Part shown: positions 860 to 17,768 of the stretch, one piece after another
Layout of the letters: each line of letters starts with the position of its first letter
How positions within the stretch are numbered: position 1 is the first letter of the stretch
Assembly (NCBI GenBank): GCA_026014565.1
Contig: JAOZIB010000013.1
Coordinates: 1-37,120, forward strand
Direction: 5' to 3'
Source of the DNA: Candidatus Bathyarchaeum sp.
GTDB lineage: Archaea > Thermoproteota > Bathyarchaeia > Bathyarchaeales > Bathyarchaeaceae
DNA: 37,120 nt
Program-made: the position numbers and the translations under genes
The notes under the pieces: model-generated
Databases searched by the model: none
What the model saw: only the letters and a program-made list of their open reading frames with translations
Told to the model about the DNA's origin: nothing

Positions 860-1158
860 AGTCACCTTCAAAATTTTGTTAAGGTGATGATTTTTCACAA
901 CTAAAAAAATGCAGAAGTGACGAAGACTCCACAGAACAATAATGTTTGTTTAAAAATTAGGTCATATATAAAAAATTATGACATAGACTGACTTGGGATT
1001 TTTGACATGTTTTAACATTATTTTGATAATTTTTAGTTAAATCTGATTTCCGTCCTTTTTTATTAGGATTTTTAAATCTTTTTTTAATTTTTTTGTGTTT
1101 TTCCAAAAATGTTATATATTGTATGGACTGAAGAATGTGTCTAATCGGTGAAAAATTT
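860..1158. other. Intergenic region before the first PQQ-propeller gene
   Basis: T-rich, with long T runs around 1058-1100. The only supported elements are the ribosome binding site of the minus-strand ORF at its left end and the TATA-type promoter near 1111-1119 at its right end. An antisense ORF at 957-1178 is low-complexity and has no ribosome binding site. Confidence 0.5.
1109..1151 (+). promoter_or_regulatory. TATA promoter and RBS of the 1159-3663 gene
   Basis: An A-rich tract and TTATATAT (1112-1119) form a BRE/TATA-like element, predicting initiation near 1140. A GGTGA (1148-1152) follows, 7 bases before the ATG at 1159. The very short leader is typical of archaea and supports the ATG at 1159 over the GTG at 1135. 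Confidence 0.6.
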
Positions 1159-3663
1159 ATGAAAAAACAGTTATGCAAGACAAAAATTTTTGCATTTTTT
1201 TGTGTATTAGTTTTTGTAATTTCAACAAATTTGGCGCTATTGCCTACAGTTGGGGCTCAAGACCTCAAAGAGAAAACAACATACGCGTTCATTGGTGCTA
1301 CACCTAATCCTGTTGGTGTAAATCAAGACGTATTGTTGCACGTCGGAATTACAGATTATCTAGAAATAGCGGAAGATGGCTGGGAAGGTCTAACAGTAAC
1401 AGTTACTGATCCCCAAGGAACAGAAACCGTTCTTGGACCCTACAGAAGCGATTCTACCGGTGGAACGGGTGCAGTATTTGTACCCACGATGGTAGGTACA
1501 TATACTTTGCAGACTCACTTCCCTGAACAAGAATACACTTGGAGTGAAATTAGTCGTGCACCATTAGGTGGGGGCGATTTGCTCTATCTAGCAAGTACAA
1601 GTGACGTGCTAGAACTTGTTGTTCAAGATAATGCAGTAGACTATTATCCGTCAAATTCTCTTCCAAATGAATACTGGAGTCGTCCAATAGATGCCCAGCT
1701 TAGGGAATGGTGGTCAATCGCTGGAAGTTGGTTAGAAGGCGCAGCCAGAGGCGGCGTAGTTATGCCATACAATGACGGGCCTGAAACCGCTCACATACTA
1801 TGGACAACTGAGTTAACCATGGGTGGACTGGTTGGAGGAGACATGGGTGAGCATGGAATGGTATGTGGAGACGCATACGAGGGCAAATACATTGATGCCT
1901 TAATCATTGACGGAATTCTTTACTACAACAAATTTGAAGCTCAAGGTGGTAGCGATGTTGAACAAGTTGTCGTTGCAATGGATCTGCACACTGGCGAAAC
2001 CGTCTGGGAACGAACACTACTAGATAACGAACAAATCGAATTTGGTCAAACCATGTACTGGGACACAATGAACAGCCACGGAGTTTACACATATCTGTGG
2101 GCAACTTCTGGAAGCACCTGGATGGCTTTTGATGCTCAAACTGGGCGATGGGTATACAACATTACTGATGTGCCTTCAGGAACACGAACCTTTGGTCCAA
2201 ATGGCGAGATTTTGGTGTACAGTGTCTCGAATGGTGTGTTAACACAATGGAACTCAACAGCAGTATACTACAACACCTTGATGGAAGAAACAGACAACTA
2301 CGCTTATCACGCAGGACGTTGGAGACCCCAAGGAAGAACTTTTGATGCATCATATGGACTAGACAAAACTATAGATCTGCCTGATGGCTTCGCAAGTGCC
2401 TCAGCTTATTACGTCAATGATAGAGTACTTTCAGTAAGCATATCTAGCACTGCAGTCAGATCTATCGCGGTGAGCTTAGAACCCGGAAAAGAGGGAACAG
2501 TGTTGCTTGAAAACACATGGAACGCACCTGCTGAATGGGAAAGCGGTAACTTGAGTGTATCATTTGCAGCCGGTTCTCCTGAAGATGGTGTTTTCGTTTT
2601 ATGGGCTTCACAGACCAGACAATTTTACGGATTTGATATGGACACTGGTGATAATATGTGGGTCTCTGATTCACAAAACTACATGGATTACTATGCTGGT
2701 ACTAACTACGTTATAGCTTATGGAAACCTTTACGCTATAGGCTATGATGGAGTTCTATATTGTTATGATGTTACAACGGGTAACGTAGAATGGACTTATG
2801 TCGCAGACGATAACTGGCACGAAATCTTGTGGAGCAACAACTGGCCTAGTAGAATTCAGTTTGTTACTGATGGAAAAATCTACGTTGGTATGGAAGAGCA
2901 TTCTTCTGTTGATCCTAAACCTCGTGGAGCACCCTACTACTGTATAGATGCATACACTGGAGATGAAATCTGGAGAATCAATGGCGGCTTCCGACAAACT
3001 CACTGGGGTGGAAACTCAATCATAGGCGATGGAATAATCGCAACCATGAACACTTACGACCAACGCATTTACGCAGTCGGTAAAGGTGCAAGCGCATTAA
3101 CCATGTCGGTTTCACCAACCGTTGGAACAAAAGGAAGCTCTGTTCAAATCGAAGGTACAATTATGGACGTATCACCAGGCACAAATAGCGTTGAATTGAC
3201 CACTCGATTCCCCAATGGTGTTCCCGCAATCTCTGATGCCGATATGAGTGAATGGATGAAATACGTTTACATGCAATTTGAGCGACCCGTAACAGCAACA
3301 GGTGTAACAGTAATCTTTTGTGCAGTAGACCCTGATGGTCAATACATGGACATTGGCAGAACCACTAGCGACTCTTATGGCAACTATGCATTTGCATTTA
3401 AGCCTGAAAAGGAAGGCACCTACCAAATTATTGCAACATTTGAAGGTTCTGGCGCGTACTATGGCTCAACCCAGACAACATACCTTACTGTCGATTCCGC
3501 ATCTGCAGCCACACAGATTGAACTTGAAGAACCAGTAGATGCACAAGTAGACTCAGAAGAACCTGTAACAGGTTTCATAACCACAGAAGTAGCTATCATA
3601 TCAGCAGTTGCAGTTGCAGCAGTCATTGGCGTAGCTGCATACTGGTTCCTAAAACGAAAATAA
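1159..3663 (+). CDS. Membrane-anchored PQQ-type beta-propeller surface protein
   Basis: An 834-aa exported protein. An N-terminal signal peptide (KTKIFAFFCVLVFVISTN, ending near VGAQ) is followed by a region with an Ig-like character. At least five PQQ/WD-like blades follow, with the D-x-x-TG-x-x-x-W pattern (for example MDLHTGETVW, FDAQTGRWVY, FDMDTGDNMW, YDVTTGNVEW, IDAYTGDEIW). After that come an Ig-like domain (about 660-780), an acidic linker, and a single membrane helix ending in the basic stop KRK. The protein should sit outside the cell, anchored by its C-terminus. PQQ-like repeats in archaea rarely bind PQQ; a structural or binding role on the surface is the safe inference. It shares its architecture with the gene at 15141-16931. 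The start at 1159 is chosen from the GGTGA seven bases upstream. Confidence 0.85.
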   Translation: MKKQLCKTKIFAFFCVLVFVISTNLALLPTVGAQDLKEKTTYAFIGATPNPVGVNQDVLLHVGITDYLEIAEDGWEGLTVTVTDPQGTETVLGPYRSDSTGGTGAVFVPTMVGTYTLQTHFPEQEYTWSEISRAPLGGGDLLYLASTSDVLELVVQDNAVDYYPSNSLPNEYWSRPIDAQLREWWSIAGSWLEGAARGGVVMPYNDGPETAHILWTTELTMGGLVGGDMGEHGMVCGDAYEGKYIDALIIDGILYYNKFEAQGGSDVEQVVVAMDLHTGETVWERTLLDNEQIEFGQTMYWDTMNSHGVYTYLWATSGSTWMAFDAQTGRWVYNITDVPSGTRTFGPNGEILVYSVSNGVLTQWNSTAVYYNTLMEETDNYAYHAGRWRPQGRTFDASYGLDKTIDLPDGFASASAYYVNDRVLSVSISSTAVRSIAVSLEPGKEGTVLLENTWNAPAEWESGNLSVSFAAGSPEDGVFVLWASQTRQFYGFDMDTGDNMWVSDSQNYMDYYAGTNYVIAYGNLYAIGYDGVLYCYDVTTGNVEWTYVADDNWHEILWSNNWPSRIQFVTDGKIYVGMEEHSSVDPKPRGAPYYCIDAYTGDEIWRINGGFRQTHWGGNSIIGDGIIATMNTYDQRIYAVGKGASALTMSVSPTVGTKGSSVQIEGTIMDVSPGTNSVELTTRFPNGVPAISDADMSEWMKYVYMQFERPVTATGVTVIFCAVDPDGQYMDIGRTTSDSYGNYAFAFKPEKEGTYQIIATFEGSGAYYGSTQTTYLTVDSASAATQIELEEPVDAQVDSEEPVTGFITTEVAIISAVAVAAVIGVAAYWFLKRK

Positions 3664-11440: not shown

Positions 11441-12967
11441 TTAGCAAACTTTTTCGGAAAGTTCAAAAGCAGAAAGTTGTTGTTCCACGTTTTTTGAAGA
11501 ATTAGAATTCATTTTCAGCATACTTTTAACAAAACCAAAAGTTTTTCTGGGATGCATCAAAGCTTTCAAAACTTTCTTCGAGGTTATCACTCGATTTACT
11601 GCGTTAGCCTTTTGGCAATACTCACTAACTTCTTTGAGGGTGAAATCTGAAGTTTGAATCAAAGGTTCAACGTGTGCCAAGGATTGGTCATTAAAATCTT
11701 CAGTTAGATAACCGCCTTGTTTAGCTTGCTCATACAATTCAGTTCCATAAAGAGGCATAGCAACACAAAAATGAAACATATCGGCACCTAGACCTCGCAG
11801 CTTATAAGCAAACTTTATGGTTTGGTCCATATCTTGTTTCGTTTCACCAACAAGCCCAAGAACAAAAAACACACCCACTTTAATACCAACTTTTCGAGCC
11901 AAAACAAGAGCATTTTCAACATCCTCGAGTTTCATATTCTTATGGATAACTTCATCAACAACCCGCTGAACCCCAGATTCAGGTGTTAAACGAATTTTTT
12001 TACAACCCGCAACCTTCATTTTTTTTAAAACTTTTTCATCAAGAGTGTCAGCACGAAGACCGTCAGGAGTATACCACTCAAGGTCCAAGTTTCTGTCACG
12101 AATTGAATCACAAATTTGTTCCATTCTTTTTTTGTCATGAGACATATTGCTATCAATAAAATCGATTTGTTTGATTGAATATTTGTCAACAACGTGTTCA
12201 AGCTCTTCAACAACATTTTCTGGACTTCGACTCCTCCAATTTCGTCCACTTACAATGTGAACCGAACAAAAAACACACCTATGAGGACACCCTCTGCTCG
12301 TCATAATTGGCGTCCAAGACTTATTAATGACCCCTCGCAGGGGGTGCTCCTTTACATCCCTAAAGTATTTGTCCATTGGGAGCAGATGCCTAGCAGGAAA
12401 GGGCAACAAATTAAGATTTTTAATGGGGGCTCTTAAATTATTTAAAAGAAATGTATCATTTTTTCTAAATCCTATTCCTTTAATTTTTTTTAGTCTGTCA
12501 ATTGAAAAGCCTTTTTGGAAATGATAAGCTATCTCCTGAAAAGAGTATTCACTTTCACCGCGGATAATAAAGTCAACATTGGGTTCGGATAAACATTGAT
12601 TTGGACGAGCAGAAGGGTGTAGACCATCAAAAACGGTAACGATGCTTTCGTCGAGATTTTTGACAATGGATGCAACTTCAAATGCGCTTTTTGACCAACC
12701 AGAAAAAGGAACATTGATTCCAACAATATCGGGTGAAATTTGTTTTATTCGATGGTACAATTCTTTATTTGTCAGACCAACTTTGTAGTTAGAGTCATCA
12801 ATTTCTTCAAGATTATTCCACCCGTCAGTGGGTGAGTCAATAATTGTGACTTTGTTTTCAGTTTCGAGAACTGCTGCCGTGTATGCTAAGGCTAATGGTT
12901 GATAAACTGCAGGTTTTCCCCATCCTTTGGGATGAATTCTAGGAGGGTTAATTAAACAAACATTCAT
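11441..12967 (-). CDS. B12-binding-domain radical SAM enzyme
   Basis: A 508-aa protein of the BchE/class B type. Residues 1 to about 175 form a Rossmann-like B12-binding domain (VCLINPPRIHP, IVGINVPFSGW, VTVFDGLHPSARP, VDFIIRGESEYSF). The radical SAM domain follows with Cys227, Cys231 and Cys234 (SRGCPHRCVFC), then IDFIDSNMS and LTPESGVQRV. A helical tail without cysteines ends the protein. Such enzymes carry out methyl transfers or rearrangements on lipids, chlorins, peptides or antibiotics; the substrate cannot be predicted. It stands alone, but its upstream region closely matches that of the PQQ/ABC operon at 13156-16931, suggesting joint regulation. The start is the ATG at 12967. Confidence 0.85.
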   Translation of the reverse strand: MNVCLINPPRIHPKGWGKPAVYQPLALAYTAAVLETENKVTIIDSPTDGWNNLEEIDDSNYKVGLTNKELYHRIKQISPDIVGINVPFSGWSKSAFEVASIVKNLDESIVTVFDGLHPSARPNQCLSEPNVDFIIRGESEYSFQEIAYHFQKGFSIDRLKKIKGIGFRKNDTFLLNNLRAPIKNLNLLPFPARHLLPMDKYFRDVKEHPLRGVINKSWTPIMTSRGCPHRCVFCSVHIVSGRNWRSRSPENVVEELEHVVDKYSIKQIDFIDSNMSHDKKRMEQICDSIRDRNLDLEWYTPDGLRADTLDEKVLKKMKVAGCKKIRLTPESGVQRVVDEVIHKNMKLEDVENALVLARKVGIKVGVFFVLGLVGETKQDMDQTIKFAYKLRGLGADMFHFCVAMPLYGTELYEQAKQGGYLTEDFNDQSLAHVEPLIQTSDFTLKEVSEYCQKANAVNRVITSKKVLKALMHPRKTFGFVKSMLKMNSNSSKNVEQQLSAFELSEKVC

Positions 12968-13117
12968 GTTAATTCCAACAATGACTACGATTTTTTTAAA
13001 TTTGATTCAATGTATTTAATAATTTGTATCGTAAATATTATGTATTTAATCCTAAAAGTTATTTTTCGGTCATTTTTTTATAAAAAAGGTGCAGATTTCG
13101 GTCAATTATTGCACCAA
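12968..13117 (-). promoter_or_regulatory. Shared regulatory region, copy 1
   Basis: This region aligns with 16932-17078 over its length. Conserved blocks include AAATTTGATTCAA, ATTTAATA, TTGTATC and TATAAAAAA. The inverted repeat GGTGCA (13088-13093) and TGCACC (13110-13115), with 16 bases between, starts 121 bases upstream of the ATG at 12967. A second inverted repeat, TTGATTCAA, lies close to the probable core promoter. Confidence 0.65.
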
Positions 13118-13155
13118 AATCGCATATTGAAATTTTCATTTATTGAAATTGACGT

Positions 13156-13830
13156 TCAATCTTGAGAAACAATTTTTCCATCTTTAAGGAACAGCATGCG
13201 GTCAATCTCAGCGCGTGGAAAATTACCGTGGCTTGCAACAACAATTGTTATCTTTGATTTATGGTTAAGCTCAACGAGTTTTGTTACAATCTCTTTTCCA
13301 GCTATGGGGTCCATATTACCTGTGGGTTCATCAGCGATAATAATTAGCGGATCCTTAACCAAAGCCCGTGCAATAGCCACCTTCTGTTGTTGTCCAACAC
13401 TTAACTCATGCGGCAGCATACTAGATTTGTCAGCTAAATCAAAAAATTTCAGTAAAGCAAATATTTTTTCATCAATTTCATTCCTGGACATGGTTGTATG
13501 AATTAAGGCTGATTCAACATTCTCAAATACAGTCAATGTTGGAAGAAGATTAAAGGTTTGGAAAATGAAACCTATCTTTTCTCTTCTTAGCAGTGCCAAG
13601 TCTTGATTTGAGAAATTACTGAGGTTCTTACCTTCAAACATTATTTCTCCAGATGTAGGTCGATTTAATGCACCAATAAGGTTCAGCAATGTAGTTTTTC
13701 CACTGCCAGAACGACCCATCACTGTCAAAAATTCACCTTTGAAAACCTCAAGGTTAACCCCATCTAATGCGTTAACCAGTGAACCATTCTTCAGGGGATA
13801 GCTTTGCATCAAGTTCTTCGTTTCTATCAA
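13156..13830 (-). CDS. MacB/LolD-type ABC transporter ATPase
   Basis: A 224-aa nucleotide-binding subunit. It has the Walker A GRSGSGKT (39-46), a Q-loop (FIFQTFNLLPTL), the signature LSVGQQQKVAIARAL (with V in place of the usual G) and the Walker B LIIADEPTGNMD. The FIFQxFNLLP segment is typical of the MacB/LolD group, which works by mechanotransmission with FtsX-like permeases rather than by moving solute through the membrane. The start is TTG at 13830, giving the usual MIETKNL N-terminus; the GAGGTGA at the end of the permease gene is about 20 bases upstream. It directly follows the permease gene (26-bp gap). Confidence 0.85.
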   Translation of the reverse strand: MIETKNLMQSYPLKNGSLVNALDGVNLEVFKGEFLTVMGRSGSGKTTLLNLIGALNRPTSGEIMFEGKNLSNFSNQDLALLRREKIGFIFQTFNLLPTLTVFENVESALIHTTMSRNEIDEKIFALLKFFDLADKSSMLPHELSVGQQQKVAIARALVKDPLIIIADEPTGNMDPIAGKEIVTKLVELNHKSKITIVVASHGNFPRAEIDRMLFLKDGKIVSQD

Positions 13831-13856
13831 TATATCGTTTTTAATTTTTTTTCACC

Positions 13857-15080
13857 TCACAGATGTCTAAGTGCTTCAGCGGGTTGCAGTTTTGCTGCAC
13901 GCCAAGCAGGGAATATGCCAGCCAATATTCCGCCACTGATCGAAAAAACTAACCCGACCAGAGGCAGAATTGGTGAAATCGTCAAAACAAGATTCTGGGT
14001 AGACACCAAATTGAGGCTTGGAATAAGGAAAATGATGAAATAACTTAAGCCAACGCCAATAATTCCACCAGCAACTCCCTGTAACAGAGATTCAAGAAAT
14101 ACTTGTTTAGTAATATCGGAATCTGCCCAACCTATCGCTTTGAGAATCCCAATTTCTCGTGTTCGTTCAACAACAGACCCAAATTGAGATTTAAGTGCAA
14201 ACAGAGTCATACAAATAAGGAGAACAATTGATATTGCCCAAGCGCTTTCAGTAGTAACTGAAATAACTTTTCTAGCAGCTGTACTACATTGGTAGCCAAC
14301 AACGGTACCTATTTCTCCTGTGTAATCATTTAAAGTTTCTAAGACGTCTTTCTCTAGGGAATTAATAGCTGTTGAATTCCCTTCAGAAGACATCTCTACA
14401 AGTACAACATTAATATCATCCATTTCAAAAAGATAGAGACGAGCATAATGTTTTCCGATTTCTTGAACCACATCAAGAGGGGCGTACATGCTAGCTATAC
14501 CTGCAGGTTTACTATAAACACTTGGATTTACGATTCCAACAACGGTGAAAGTTTGATCGAATGCATTTAGACTATCTCCCACTGTTAGTCCTGTCACTCC
14601 AGCATAAACCGAGTCGATAAGAACTGCACCAGAATCATTTACCTTTGAATAATTGCCAACGACTAACGTTTTAGCGTTTACAACATTAGTTTGCGTTGCT
14701 AGAGAATCATAATCAACTCCACATATGGTTAGATTATCAAGTCTAAACATCAAACAAGGTGCAGCGTCAAGAACACCGGCCAAAGTAGATACTTTTTCAA
14801 CCAGATCTGAGTCGAATGTGTACGTATACGCTGATTTGAAAAATGGACCAATATCTATAGCCAAATGACACGGGCAGATTATTGATTCAGGAGTGTATAC
14901 TACGAAATGAGTCCCAATCTGATTCAATTGAGAAGTGGCTTCTACATTGTAGCTTTGTGCAAACGTAACAGTGACAATTAAGAATGTAACTGCAATGACA
15001 TAACCAATTATAGAAGCAGTACTGCGGAGCTTTCGCTTTTTAATTTCTTTGATTGCATAATTACGGATCGTTTTAAACAC
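13857..15080 (-). CDS. FtsX-like/MacB-type ABC permease
   Basis: A 407-aa protein with one helix near residues 22-42, a large extracytoplasmic domain (about 43-270) and three C-terminal helices, the FtsX/MacB layout. ERTREIGILKAIGW before the last helices is the standard FtsX motif. The external domain is unusually rich in Cys: CPCH at 69-72, and further single Cys near PCLMF, TICGV and YQCS. Together with the ATPase (26 bp downstream) and the PQQ-propeller protein (60 bp upstream) it forms an operon, presumably acting on something at the cell surface, for example release or assembly of a lipoprotein-like or extracellular component. The start is GTG at 15080 with GTGAG just upstream. Confidence 0.8.
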   Translation of the reverse strand: MFKTIRNYAIKEIKKRKLRSTASIIGYVIAVTFLIVTVTFAQSYNVEATSQLNQIGTHFVVYTPESIICPCHLAIDIGPFFKSAYTYTFDSDLVEKVSTLAGVLDAAPCLMFRLDNLTICGVDYDSLATQTNVVNAKTLVVGNYSKVNDSGAVLIDSVYAGVTGLTVGDSLNAFDQTFTVVGIVNPSVYSKPAGIASMYAPLDVVQEIGKHYARLYLFEMDDINVVLVEMSSEGNSTAINSLEKDVLETLNDYTGEIGTVVGYQCSTAARKVISVTTESAWAISIVLLICMTLFALKSQFGSVVERTREIGILKAIGWADSDITKQVFLESLLQGVAGGIIGVGLSYFIIFLIPSLNLVSTQNLVLTISPILPLVGLVFSISGGILAGIFPAWRAAKLQPAEALRHL

Positions 15081-15140
15081 CTCACGTCCATATATAGATA
15101 GATTGAATTTTGTAAAAAAACAAAAAAGAAGGAAATTGGG

Positions 15141-16931
15141 TTATTTCCTTTTTCTTAGCACCAAATATGCTACTACGCTTAATACGCAAGCGGCTACGAT
15201 TGCAATAATTATGGCTAATTCAGTGCCGATAAGTGGAGCTGTTGCAGTAGCTTCTGTTTGTTCAGGTTCAATTGATTGTGCAGGTGTTGTTGCAGGACCA
15301 ACTTGAACTAAAGTAGTAATGGTAGTTGATGGCTCATAAGAAGTACTTCCTGCGTAGCAAGCTTGAATAGCATAAATTCCTTCAGCGGATGGATTCCACA
15401 GGGTATAGAATAATCCATTAGCATCTGTGGTAACTGTAGCGATTTTAGTGGTGTCTGCAAACAAGTCTACTTGAGCATTAGAAATAGGAACATCTGGAGT
15501 AGCAGGAGATAGATCACTAAGAGTACCGTAGACAACAGTGTCTTTTCCAAGTTCCAAAGAAGAATCCGTGACAGATAACGAAACTGCAGTTGGACCCATT
15601 CCAAAACAATATACATATCCTGTAGCTCCATTATGGATGTACCATTTACCATCTGAGATTACAGTTGCACCAACGCAAGCCCCATAACCCTTTTTATAAG
15701 GACCAGCATCCATTTCGACCTCCCATTTTAGCGTTCCTGTTTCCTCATCCAAACATTGACCCCATCCATGTAATTCAGGGTTGCCATTGTCGTCGGGTAA
15801 GACAAATGAAGCAGTGATATAGACATTACCATCAGCAATTACAGGGTAATAGTAAGCAGCTGAATTCTCTTTTGGTGCAAATGTCCACAAAGCATCTCCT
15901 GTCTGTAAGTCAAAGCAATAAAACAGTTTAGGAGAGCCATCTAAGGTAGTATCATAAGCGAAGACCTTTCCATCATGTATCGCTACTGAAGATGGAAGTG
16001 ATCCTGGTAATGCATCCCACACAAATTCTCCTGTCGCAGCATCAAGGCATACTAAACGGTCACCTGCAGGAACAACAGCGTATCCATCAGATAGACTAAT
16101 TTGTTCCACCATCATAAAAGCACATTCAGGTACATTGTAATTCCATATTATTTCTCCAGTGGTTGCATTAAAACAGTATACCACGCCATTAAAGGCTCCA
16201 CAATAGAGCATGTCACCAGATAGCGTAGGGCTGTGAAAACCTCCCCATCCATAGGATGATGCATCGGGCAAAGTGAATGTCCATAGTGTCTTAACATTAT
16301 CGAAGGGTTCTACCATATCAGCCCAACAACAATGATCATACTGGTCTTGCAGGCAAAACAGAGTGTCTCCAACGCCTACGTAAATCATGTCATTACCACA
16401 AACAAGTGGATAATTTACACGATACACAGGATTTTCTGCAGTGGCTAAAACAAGGTCTCGAGGAAAGTAGTACTTCCAATTTAGTGCTCCAGTTACAGCG
16501 TCCAAGCGAACAATGCTGTAATTTTCCGCATCAGTGTAGACATGACCGTCATTATAGATCACCGCTTCGGGACTTTTAGCTCGACCTACTTCAGTTTGCC
16601 ATACAGTTTCTCCCGTCTCTGCATCAAAAGCAAAAACCATTCCATCGAACACACTTTTTGTGAAAACCATGCCTTCAGCAACTGAAAAGACAAAAGGCGC
16701 ATTAGAAGTACCAGTTGTCGATTTCCATAACAAATGAGATGATTGTGGACCTGGGCTTGGTGTGTATCCAGTAGCTTCCAGATCATATGCAACATTCGCC
16801 CATGGATACTGCGTTTCACCAAATCCAACAGTCGTTTGACCTTGAATTGGCGAAATCATAGTAACCGTGAGCATTGACATCATCATTAGAGTTAAAAAAA
16901 CTCCATGGGAGTATAATTTTTTTTTATTCAT
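15141..16931 (-). CDS. Membrane-anchored PQQ-type beta-propeller protein
   Basis: A 596-aa exported protein with a signal peptide (FLTLMMMSMLTVTMISP), then six or more PQQ-like blades with the D-x-x-TG-x-x-x-W pattern (FDAETGETVW, LDAVTGALNW, FNATTGEIIW, LDAATGEFVW, FDLQTGDALW, LDEETGTLKW). An Ig-like domain (about 455-545) and a C-terminal helix with the basic end RKRK follow. Residues 193-202 hold three Cys and one His (CLQDQYDHCC), an unusual cluster for a propeller. It shares its layout with 1159-3663. The ATG at 16931 has GGTGA six bases upstream. As first gene of the operon with the ABC permease and ATPase, it probably acts as their extracellular partner. Confidence 0.85.
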   Translation of the reverse strand: MNKKKLYSHGVFLTLMMMSMLTVTMISPIQGQTTVGFGETQYPWANVAYDLEATGYTPSPGPQSSHLLWKSTTGTSNAPFVFSVAEGMVFTKSVFDGMVFAFDAETGETVWQTEVGRAKSPEAVIYNDGHVYTDAENYSIVRLDAVTGALNWKYYFPRDLVLATAENPVYRVNYPLVCGNDMIYVGVGDTLFCLQDQYDHCCWADMVEPFDNVKTLWTFTLPDASSYGWGGFHSPTLSGDMLYCGAFNGVVYCFNATTGEIIWNYNVPECAFMMVEQISLSDGYAVVPAGDRLVCLDAATGEFVWDALPGSLPSSVAIHDGKVFAYDTTLDGSPKLFYCFDLQTGDALWTFAPKENSAAYYYPVIADGNVYITASFVLPDDNGNPELHGWGQCLDEETGTLKWEVEMDAGPYKKGYGACVGATVISDGKWYIHNGATGYVYCFGMGPTAVSLSVTDSSLELGKDTVVYGTLSDLSPATPDVPISNAQVDLFADTTKIATVTTDANGLFYTLWNPSAEGIYAIQACYAGSTSYEPSTTITTLVQVGPATTPAQSIEPEQTEATATAPLIGTELAIIIAIVAACVLSVVAYLVLRKRK

Positions 16932-17078
16932 TAAGTATCACCATTCATTTTTGATTTTTAAATTTGATTCAAAGCATTTAATACCTTGTATCAAAAATAA
17001 CTTCATTCTGAACCTAAAGGATGGTTTGAACATATTGTTTTATAAAAAAAGTGCAGATTTAACCACTCTTTTGCACGA
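16932..17078 (-). promoter_or_regulatory. Shared regulatory region, copy 2
   Basis: Counterpart of 12968-13117. The inverted repeat GTGCA (17051-17055) and TGCAC (17072-17076), again 16 bases apart, begins 120 bases upstream of the ATG at 16931, almost exactly the distance in copy 1. TTTGATTCAAA is a perfect inverted repeat around a single central base. The AT-rich TATTAAATG and AAATTTAAAA on the minus strand are the likely core promoter. Confidence 0.65.
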
Positions 17079-17237
17079 AAAGACTGCATTTAAAGGCATA
17101 CGGATCTTAACAAAGATTTTCAGATAGAATTATTTTAAGCGATAAAAATAAAAATTCTAAAAAAAAATAATTAATCTCGTATGTTTACTCAAACTTAAAA
17201 AAGAGAAAACTTTTTGGTGTTATCATAAAGTTTTAGC
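16932..17237. other. Intergenic region between PQQ operon and regulator gene
   Basis: The left part is the regulatory region described at 16932-17078. The right part (17079-17237) is A-rich and holds the 3' flank of the regulator gene; nothing else is recognisable in it. Confidence 0.5.
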
Positions 17238-17750
17238 CTAATTAGTTTGGTTTGAATCATCTGTAAAATCAGGATCTAGCCGCGTCAAAGAAAAAGGCAA
17301 ATACGTGTTTTCTTTTTTAACTAAATCTACCACAAAAAATTGAATGTCATCATAGAACTCTTGTGAATCCACTCTCAAACCGCTAATAAAATTGGAAAAA
17401 TCTGAGTAGTTTTTATGCGCAGACATAATTATGTTTGTAGCTAAACCTTCGCCGTCAGCAGCGAATAATATAGAATTGTGATTTTTAAACCACTCCATTT
17501 GTTTTTCACGCCAGTCTTTTTCTAAGGTACTCAACGTTAAAAATGTAAAAGCCAAGAGGGTGTAACCAATTTTTGTAAATTCAGGCAAAATAGTGTATTC
17601 ATTAATGTAGCCTTCGATTTCAAGTGCCCTCCTTGTTCGAGTCACAGTGGACCTTGTGGTACCAGTGATTTTGGACAATTCTTTATCACTTCTTCGAGCA
17701 CCTTTAATCAAAGCAAACAGAAGTTGCAATTTCTGCTGATTTTTTCGCAC
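17238..17750 (-). CDS. Winged helix-turn-helix transcriptional regulator
   Basis: A 170-aa protein. Residues 5-60 form a winged helix-turn-helix of the Lrp/AsnC or MarR type (QQKLQLLFALIKGARRSD, then ELSKITGTTRSTVTRTRRALE with the recognition helix). A C-terminal domain of about 100 residues follows, with a hydrophobic strand pattern like a RAM/ACT sensor, but no clear effector motif. The GTG at 17750 is preferred over the in-frame ATG at 17768 because GGGAG lies seven bases before it and after the ATG. It is adjacent to the PQQ/ABC operon and near the two GTGCA-N16-TGCAC sites, so it is a candidate regulator of both. The target is inferred only. Confidence 0.7.
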   Translation of the reverse strand: MRKNQQKLQLLFALIKGARRSDKELSKITGTTRSTVTRTRRALEIEGYINEYTILPEFTKIGYTLLAFTFLTLSTLEKDWREKQMEWFKNHNSILFAADGEGLATNIIMSAHKNYSDFSNFISGLRVDSQEFYDDIQFFVVDLVKKENTYLPFSLTRLDPDFTDDSNQTN

Positions 17751-17768
17751 AAGAAATCTCCCTTCCAT

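Follow-up and report, generated by a model that had tools for sequence, protein, structure and literature searches.

A putative promoter-operator module in two copies, upstream of a surface operon and of a B12-radical SAM gene in a bathyarchaeal genome

Two separate gene units in the window (the whole stretch of DNA analyzed here, 37,120 nucleotides) are preceded by similar sequences, which raises the question of whether a single regulatory module has been copied between them and whether the two units are controlled together. One unit is the gene for a B12-binding radical SAM enzyme of 508 aa (11441–12967). The other encodes a secreted PQQ-repeat beta-propeller protein (15141–16931), a MacB/FtsX-like permease (13857–15080) and a LolD/MacB/FtsE-like ABC ATPase (13156–13830), and next to it lies the gene for a candidate Lrp/AsnC-type regulator (17238–17768); the minus strand carries all five.

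A preliminary description of the window had aligned the two upstream regions over about 150 bp. The homology is real but shorter, extending without gaps over 127 bp of the minus strand, of which 90 are identical (71%). Copy 1 (12993–13119) sits between the stop codon of the ABC gene and the start of the radical SAM gene, and copy 2 (16955–17081) is upstream of the PQQ/FtsX/ABC operon. Local alignment of the two gave a score of 110 versus a maximum of 67 for 1,000 shuffled pairs, and blastn matched them with E = 5e-13 at genome scale. Identity is clustered: 82 of 90 positions match within six blocks, versus 8 of 37 in the spacers, which is near chance (0.32 expected from composition). Permutation of the matches gave p = 5e-5 for this clustering, the block limits having been chosen after the alignment was seen. 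The blocks named earlier (TTTGATTCAA, TTTAATA, TTGTATC and TATAAAAAA) were correct to within one base, and the inverted repeats GTGCA-N16-TGCAC stand exactly where they had been placed, at dyad-to-ATG distances of 122 and 120 that also agree to within one base.

A search for more copies of this inverted repeat, suggested at the time, returned exact matches at these two places only in the 1.81-Mb genome. We also built a sequence-only model, R1, from both copies; it recovered copy 1, one of its two sources, at E 1e-30 and detected no module copies in this genome beyond the two. Loosening the repeat to three mismatches yielded no further module copy in the genome, and a reversed-pattern control gave counts of a similar order in most genomes. 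One such fuzzy match, on contig C40 (8887–8912), was rejected as it falls inside a coding frame.

Layout of the control region

Read 5' to 3' on the minus strand, each copy consists of a first dyad, a single base, a predicted TATA box, the hexamer TTTAGG, a second dyad and 15–25 bp of leader before the ATG. The upstream part, TTTT-GTGCAA...AAATCTGCAC, forms dyad 1 (13089–13114 in copy 1 and 17051–17076 in copy 2), which is exact in both copies, has half-sites 21 bp apart and is expected 0.01 times in shuffles of the window. The predicted archaeal TATA box, TTTTTTATAAAA, begins one base downstream of dyad 1 and is an invariant block (13076–13087 and 17038–17049, minus strand). Roughly 27 nt from the TATA centre, the distance expected of an archaeal start site, lies TTTAGG (13051–13056 and 17013–17018, minus strand), an initiator predicted from spacing only; transcription is thus predicted to start near it in both copies.

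The downstream part, TATTT..GATACAA..TATTAAAT.C.TTGAATCAAATTTAAAAA, contains dyad 2, GATACAA-N13-TTGAATC (13004–13030 in copy 1, aligned with 16966–16992 in copy 2), at about +22 to +49 of the predicted transcript. Of the dyads in the region it is the strongest (p = 0.015 in column shuffles) and occurs, within three mismatches, at these two places only in this genome, a third match being copy 1 on the opposite strand. Both dyads of copy 1 are built from variants of one half-site, GRTDCAR (GGTGCAA, GGTGCAG, GATACAA and GATTCAA), which dyad 1 of copy 2 fits less well. We considered TATTAAAT or TTTAAAAA as a second TATA box giving a nearly leaderless transcript and rejected it, because the GGTGAT just before the ATG of the PQQ gene argues for a leadered one.

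The module's best conserved parts include about 45 bp of the predicted leader, so that the portion downstream of the TATA box might instead act as RNA, as a leader element or riboswitch, with control partly post-transcriptional. The PQQ leader does fold better than its shuffles (z −2.4), whereas the radical SAM leader folds worse (z +1.5), which leaves an RNA structure common to both unsupported, and no Rfam match was found in the leader. We regard an RNA element as quite improbable.

Eight helical turns (84.5 bp) separate the centres of the two dyads. It is conceivable, accordingly, that one Lrp assembly clamps the entire core promoter or wraps it, and so coordinates a surface PQQ-propeller/MacB-like machine with a B12-radical SAM enzyme of the same pathway, an arrangement that we think unlikely; no such operator layout is described in the part of an archaeal Lrp review consulted here (PMC2995911).

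A third copy and the origin of the duplication

Across 257 genomes of the class, R1 gave one further match at E ≤ 0.001 (E = 4.5e-6), in G156, which belongs to a different family within the order; in a set of 60 relatives it gave no convincing third copy. The match falls exactly between an orthologous Lrp gene (66% identity) and an orthologous PQQ gene (61%), and the gene order is the same as here, with FtsX and ABC proteins 78% and 81% identical. The G156 region keeps GTACA-N16-TGCGC, an incomplete match to the arms of dyad 1, together with the TATA box (as TTTTTGTAGAA), TT.GG and the dyad 2 core ATGCA-N15-TGAAT (ATnCA-N15-TGnAT across the copies), all of them in register, with no more than one base shifted. 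When the block limits from copies 1 and 2 are applied, G156 matches the PQQ copy at 60 of 90 block and 9 of 37 spacer positions (Fisher p = 3e-5), and the radical SAM copy at 59 of 90 and 17 of 37 (p = 0.05). Conservation in relatives, raised in the preliminary description as a check, thus extends to one other genome, at the orthologous operon. This independent footprinting in another family supports a regulatory reading, and, taken with the promoter anatomy and the block-wise conservation, the view of both regions as duplicates of a single archaeal promoter-operator module is well supported.

G156 has no radical SAM gene after its ABC gene, no second R1 match and no flanking repeat. Because its copy precedes the orthologous PQQ gene where there is no radical SAM gene, the module appears to be the old promoter of the PQQ operon; the position of copy 2 would then be ancestral and the copy upstream of the radical SAM gene is most likely a later duplicate. 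Copies 1 and 2 are also closer to one another (71%) than to G156 (60% and 54%). A more distant form of the gene order occurs in G003 (Lrp gene, a 1160-aa PQQ/Ig gene, FtsX and ABC), where the spacer between the Lrp and PQQ genes has no significant similarity to the module (scores of 47 and 30 versus shuffle maxima of 54 and 48).

The point at which the duplicate was joined can be narrowed by comparison with the nearest paralogue of the radical SAM gene (G000:C1:60663-62180; 81% protein identity), which lies directly behind another PQQ gene and is without the module in the R1 search. DNA homology of this pair runs from window position 12982, 15 bp above the ATG, to 11450, and module homology ends at 12993, which confines the junction to about 10 bp. 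At four-fold sites, the two genes share 59% identity, the same order as divergence from G002 (51–63%).

In the closest relatives, G002 and G006 (purA 95–96% identical), the amino acid permease gene and purA that flank the locus here are adjacent, with a gap of about 650 bp. Since these flanking genes are neighbours there, the 11.4–17.8 kb segment would either have been inserted in this lineage or lost from the others. Both this absence and the arrangement of the two copies as direct repeats on either side of the PQQ-FtsX-ABC genes are compatible with a remnant of duplication or recombination (for example, direct repeats around a 4-kb segment) that has no regulatory meaning. Against such a remnant, identity sits in promoter-like blocks of unchanged spacing between spacers near chance, G156, which has no flanking repeat, retains these blocks, and no transposase was seen among the genes examined; we therefore consider it very improbable. 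The mobile-element origin that the preliminary description had held open is likewise unsupported for the module itself, but, compared with close relatives, the island as a whole is an insertion. At the start of the contig (window 19–275), there are four 37-nt CRISPR repeats (Rfam CRISPR-DR7) at a spacing of 73–74.

Candidate regulator and shared control

The winged-helix gene had been given as 17238–17750. It does adjoin copy 2, as described, but its frame runs from an ATG at 17768, the GTG at 17750 being an alternative start. The product matches PF13412 above and PF13404 below cut-off, and profile searches relate it to PH0061 (E 1e-13), PH1519 and LrpA (E 1e-10). The C-terminal domain is predicted to fold as beta-alpha-beta-beta-alpha-beta, the RAM type (pLDDT 83), and a Foldseek search with the model gave 41 PDB matches at E ≤ 0.001, all of Lrp/AsnC fold, with TM-scores of only ~0.5 and an rmsd of ~10 because relative domain placement differs. 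The Lrp protein is the best candidate regulator because it stays with the PQQ operon, in the same place in G156 and, as a 34%-identical relative, in G003; that it binds the module is plausible.

A regulator encoded elsewhere, with the adjacent Lrp protein coincidental or in control of other genes, would also account for a shared promoter-operator. Many Lrp proteins autoregulate, and upstream of the winged-helix gene itself there is no dyad site of the module type. About eight Lrp relatives of its subfamily are encoded in the genome, and the dyads, spanning 26–27 bp, are longer than the 13–17-bp imperfect inverted repeats given as known archaeal Lrp sites, including those of Ptr2, LysM and Ss-LrpB, in the part of the review used here (PMC2995911). 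Set against the retention of the gene beside the operon in G156 and G003, these points leave a distant regulator rather unlikely.

By its position, dyad 1 fits the activator sites of characterized promoters. According to the same part of the review, the sites of archaeal Lrp activators lie a few bp upstream of the BRE and are tightly constrained in position, with two or three helical turns between neighbouring sites; P. furiosus LrpA, by contrast, acts as a repressor at a site immediately downstream of the TATA box (PMC2995911). As at the Ptr2, LysM and Ss-LrpB promoters covered there, the dyad here is directly upstream of the TATA/BRE at a fixed position with half-sites about two helical turns apart, and, as with archaeal Lrp/AsnC activator promoters, a gene for an Lrp-type regulator is next door (PMC2995911). 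Unlike at those three promoters, the second dyad here is inside the predicted leader, and Lrp binding to the present sites is a prediction (PMC2995911).

The same operator precedes each of the two units, which are likely to be under shared control. We think it probable that the promoter-operator of the operon was copied to the B12-radical SAM gene and that both units then came under the adjacent Lrp/AsnC protein, most likely at dyad 1. Besides the length of the dyads and the missing site at the regulator gene, two points count against this reading: a single further genome carries the module, and its dyad 1 arms match incompletely. The module would originally have belonged to a surface operon comprising the Lrp-type gene, the PQQ beta-propeller, the MacB/FtsX-like permease and the ABC ATPase; in this lineage, a copy would have been joined to the B12-radical SAM gene now behind the operon, placing it under the operon's control. 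The Lrp/AsnC protein would most likely bind dyad 1, right beside the TATA box. It may also bind dyad 2, at the beginning of the transcript, and would modulate recruitment of TBP, TFB and RNA polymerase at both promoters, so that the two units may be co-expressed. As to the sign of control, activation from dyad 1 appears likelier, and dyad 2 could serve repression or a larger assembly.

Promoter duplication is a known route to a larger regulon, of which this locus would be a well-defined new example: a clear sequence case, in an archaeon, of regulon growth through copying of a whole promoter-operator. It also supplies a defined operator and a candidate regulator for PQQ-propeller, ABC and B12-radical SAM genes that are otherwise without function, and offers an approach to what these expanded families do jointly.

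The surface complex and the B12-radical SAM enzyme

The preliminary description had further suggested that the enzyme makes or modifies something handled by the surface complex. The PQQ protein (PF13360 above and PF16640 below cut-off) has an Ig-like domain and a C-terminal anchor. The permease passes both Pfam cut-offs, for the FtsX C-terminal domain (PF02687) and the MacB_PCD extracytoplasmic domain (PF12704), and matches MacB and LolF structures by profile; its own structure model is poor (pLDDT 57). As in MacB/LolCDE/FtsEX-type ABC systems, a MacB-like permease and a LolD/FtsE-like ATPase are encoded together; unlike in those systems, their partner is a surface PQQ beta-propeller/Ig protein, and no MacA-type adaptor or TolC-type partner was found among the island genes scanned.

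In a collection of genome contigs, the PQQ protein had no match and FtsX two weak bacterial FtsX matches only; viral contigs contained no FtsX match, and plasmids only FtsX relatives below 60%. Within the 1.8-Mb genome, the PQQ/Ig protein has ~39 matches (including window 1135–3663), a large family expansion. At one locus (L215, G109:C146, 6759–10218), an FG-GAP beta-propeller gene takes the place of the PQQ gene ahead of the FtsX-ABC pair (64% and 76%), with a short TrmB-like frame upstream; the surface propeller thus seems exchangeable. In G005 and G001, other members of the genus, FtsX-ABC pairs of 35% identity lie beside DsbD-like and polyferredoxin genes (L171 and L174).

In the enzyme, the B12-binding domain (PF02310) precedes the radical SAM domain (PF04055), both above cut-offs, and the CxxxCxxC cysteines C227, C231 and C234 are invariant in the subfamily. 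Named equivalogs scored below their NCBIfam cut-offs: P-methyltransferase (203 of 575 bits), HpnJ (169 of 578) and BchE (133 of 481). At 7 of 16 loci, a subfamily member has a PQQ gene no more than about 5 kb away; as a raw count this is suggestive, three of the other loci coming from near-identical genomes and some contigs being short. In Bathy-6 type Bathyarchaeia, the PQQ-domain family and the B12-radical SAM family have both expanded, and a joint part in modifying lignin has been proposed for them (PMC11697101). Gene content suggests that the present host is an archaeon of this kind. As in Bathy-6, secreted PQQ/Ig proteins and enzymes of the B12-radical SAM type are numerous here in one small genome; the text on Bathy-6, unlike the present case, makes no mention of FtsX, promoters or regulation (PMC11697101). 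The suggested link draws some weak support from relatives that are often a few kb from PQQ genes, and the G156 operon, which has no radical SAM gene, speaks against it, so that an enzymatic connection to the surface complex is speculative.

Other B12-radical SAM gene clusters, conserved across genera, occur at G000:C40:2800-16600 (L089), G002:C1 (L091), G005:C1 (L090) and G060:C6 (L097). They contain a SPASM-type radical SAM gene together with genes that resemble those of B12 synthesis (cobD/cbiB and cbiA type, judged on sequence only), and upstream of the radical SAM relative the genomes have CCAAACGTTTTTAGG in common.
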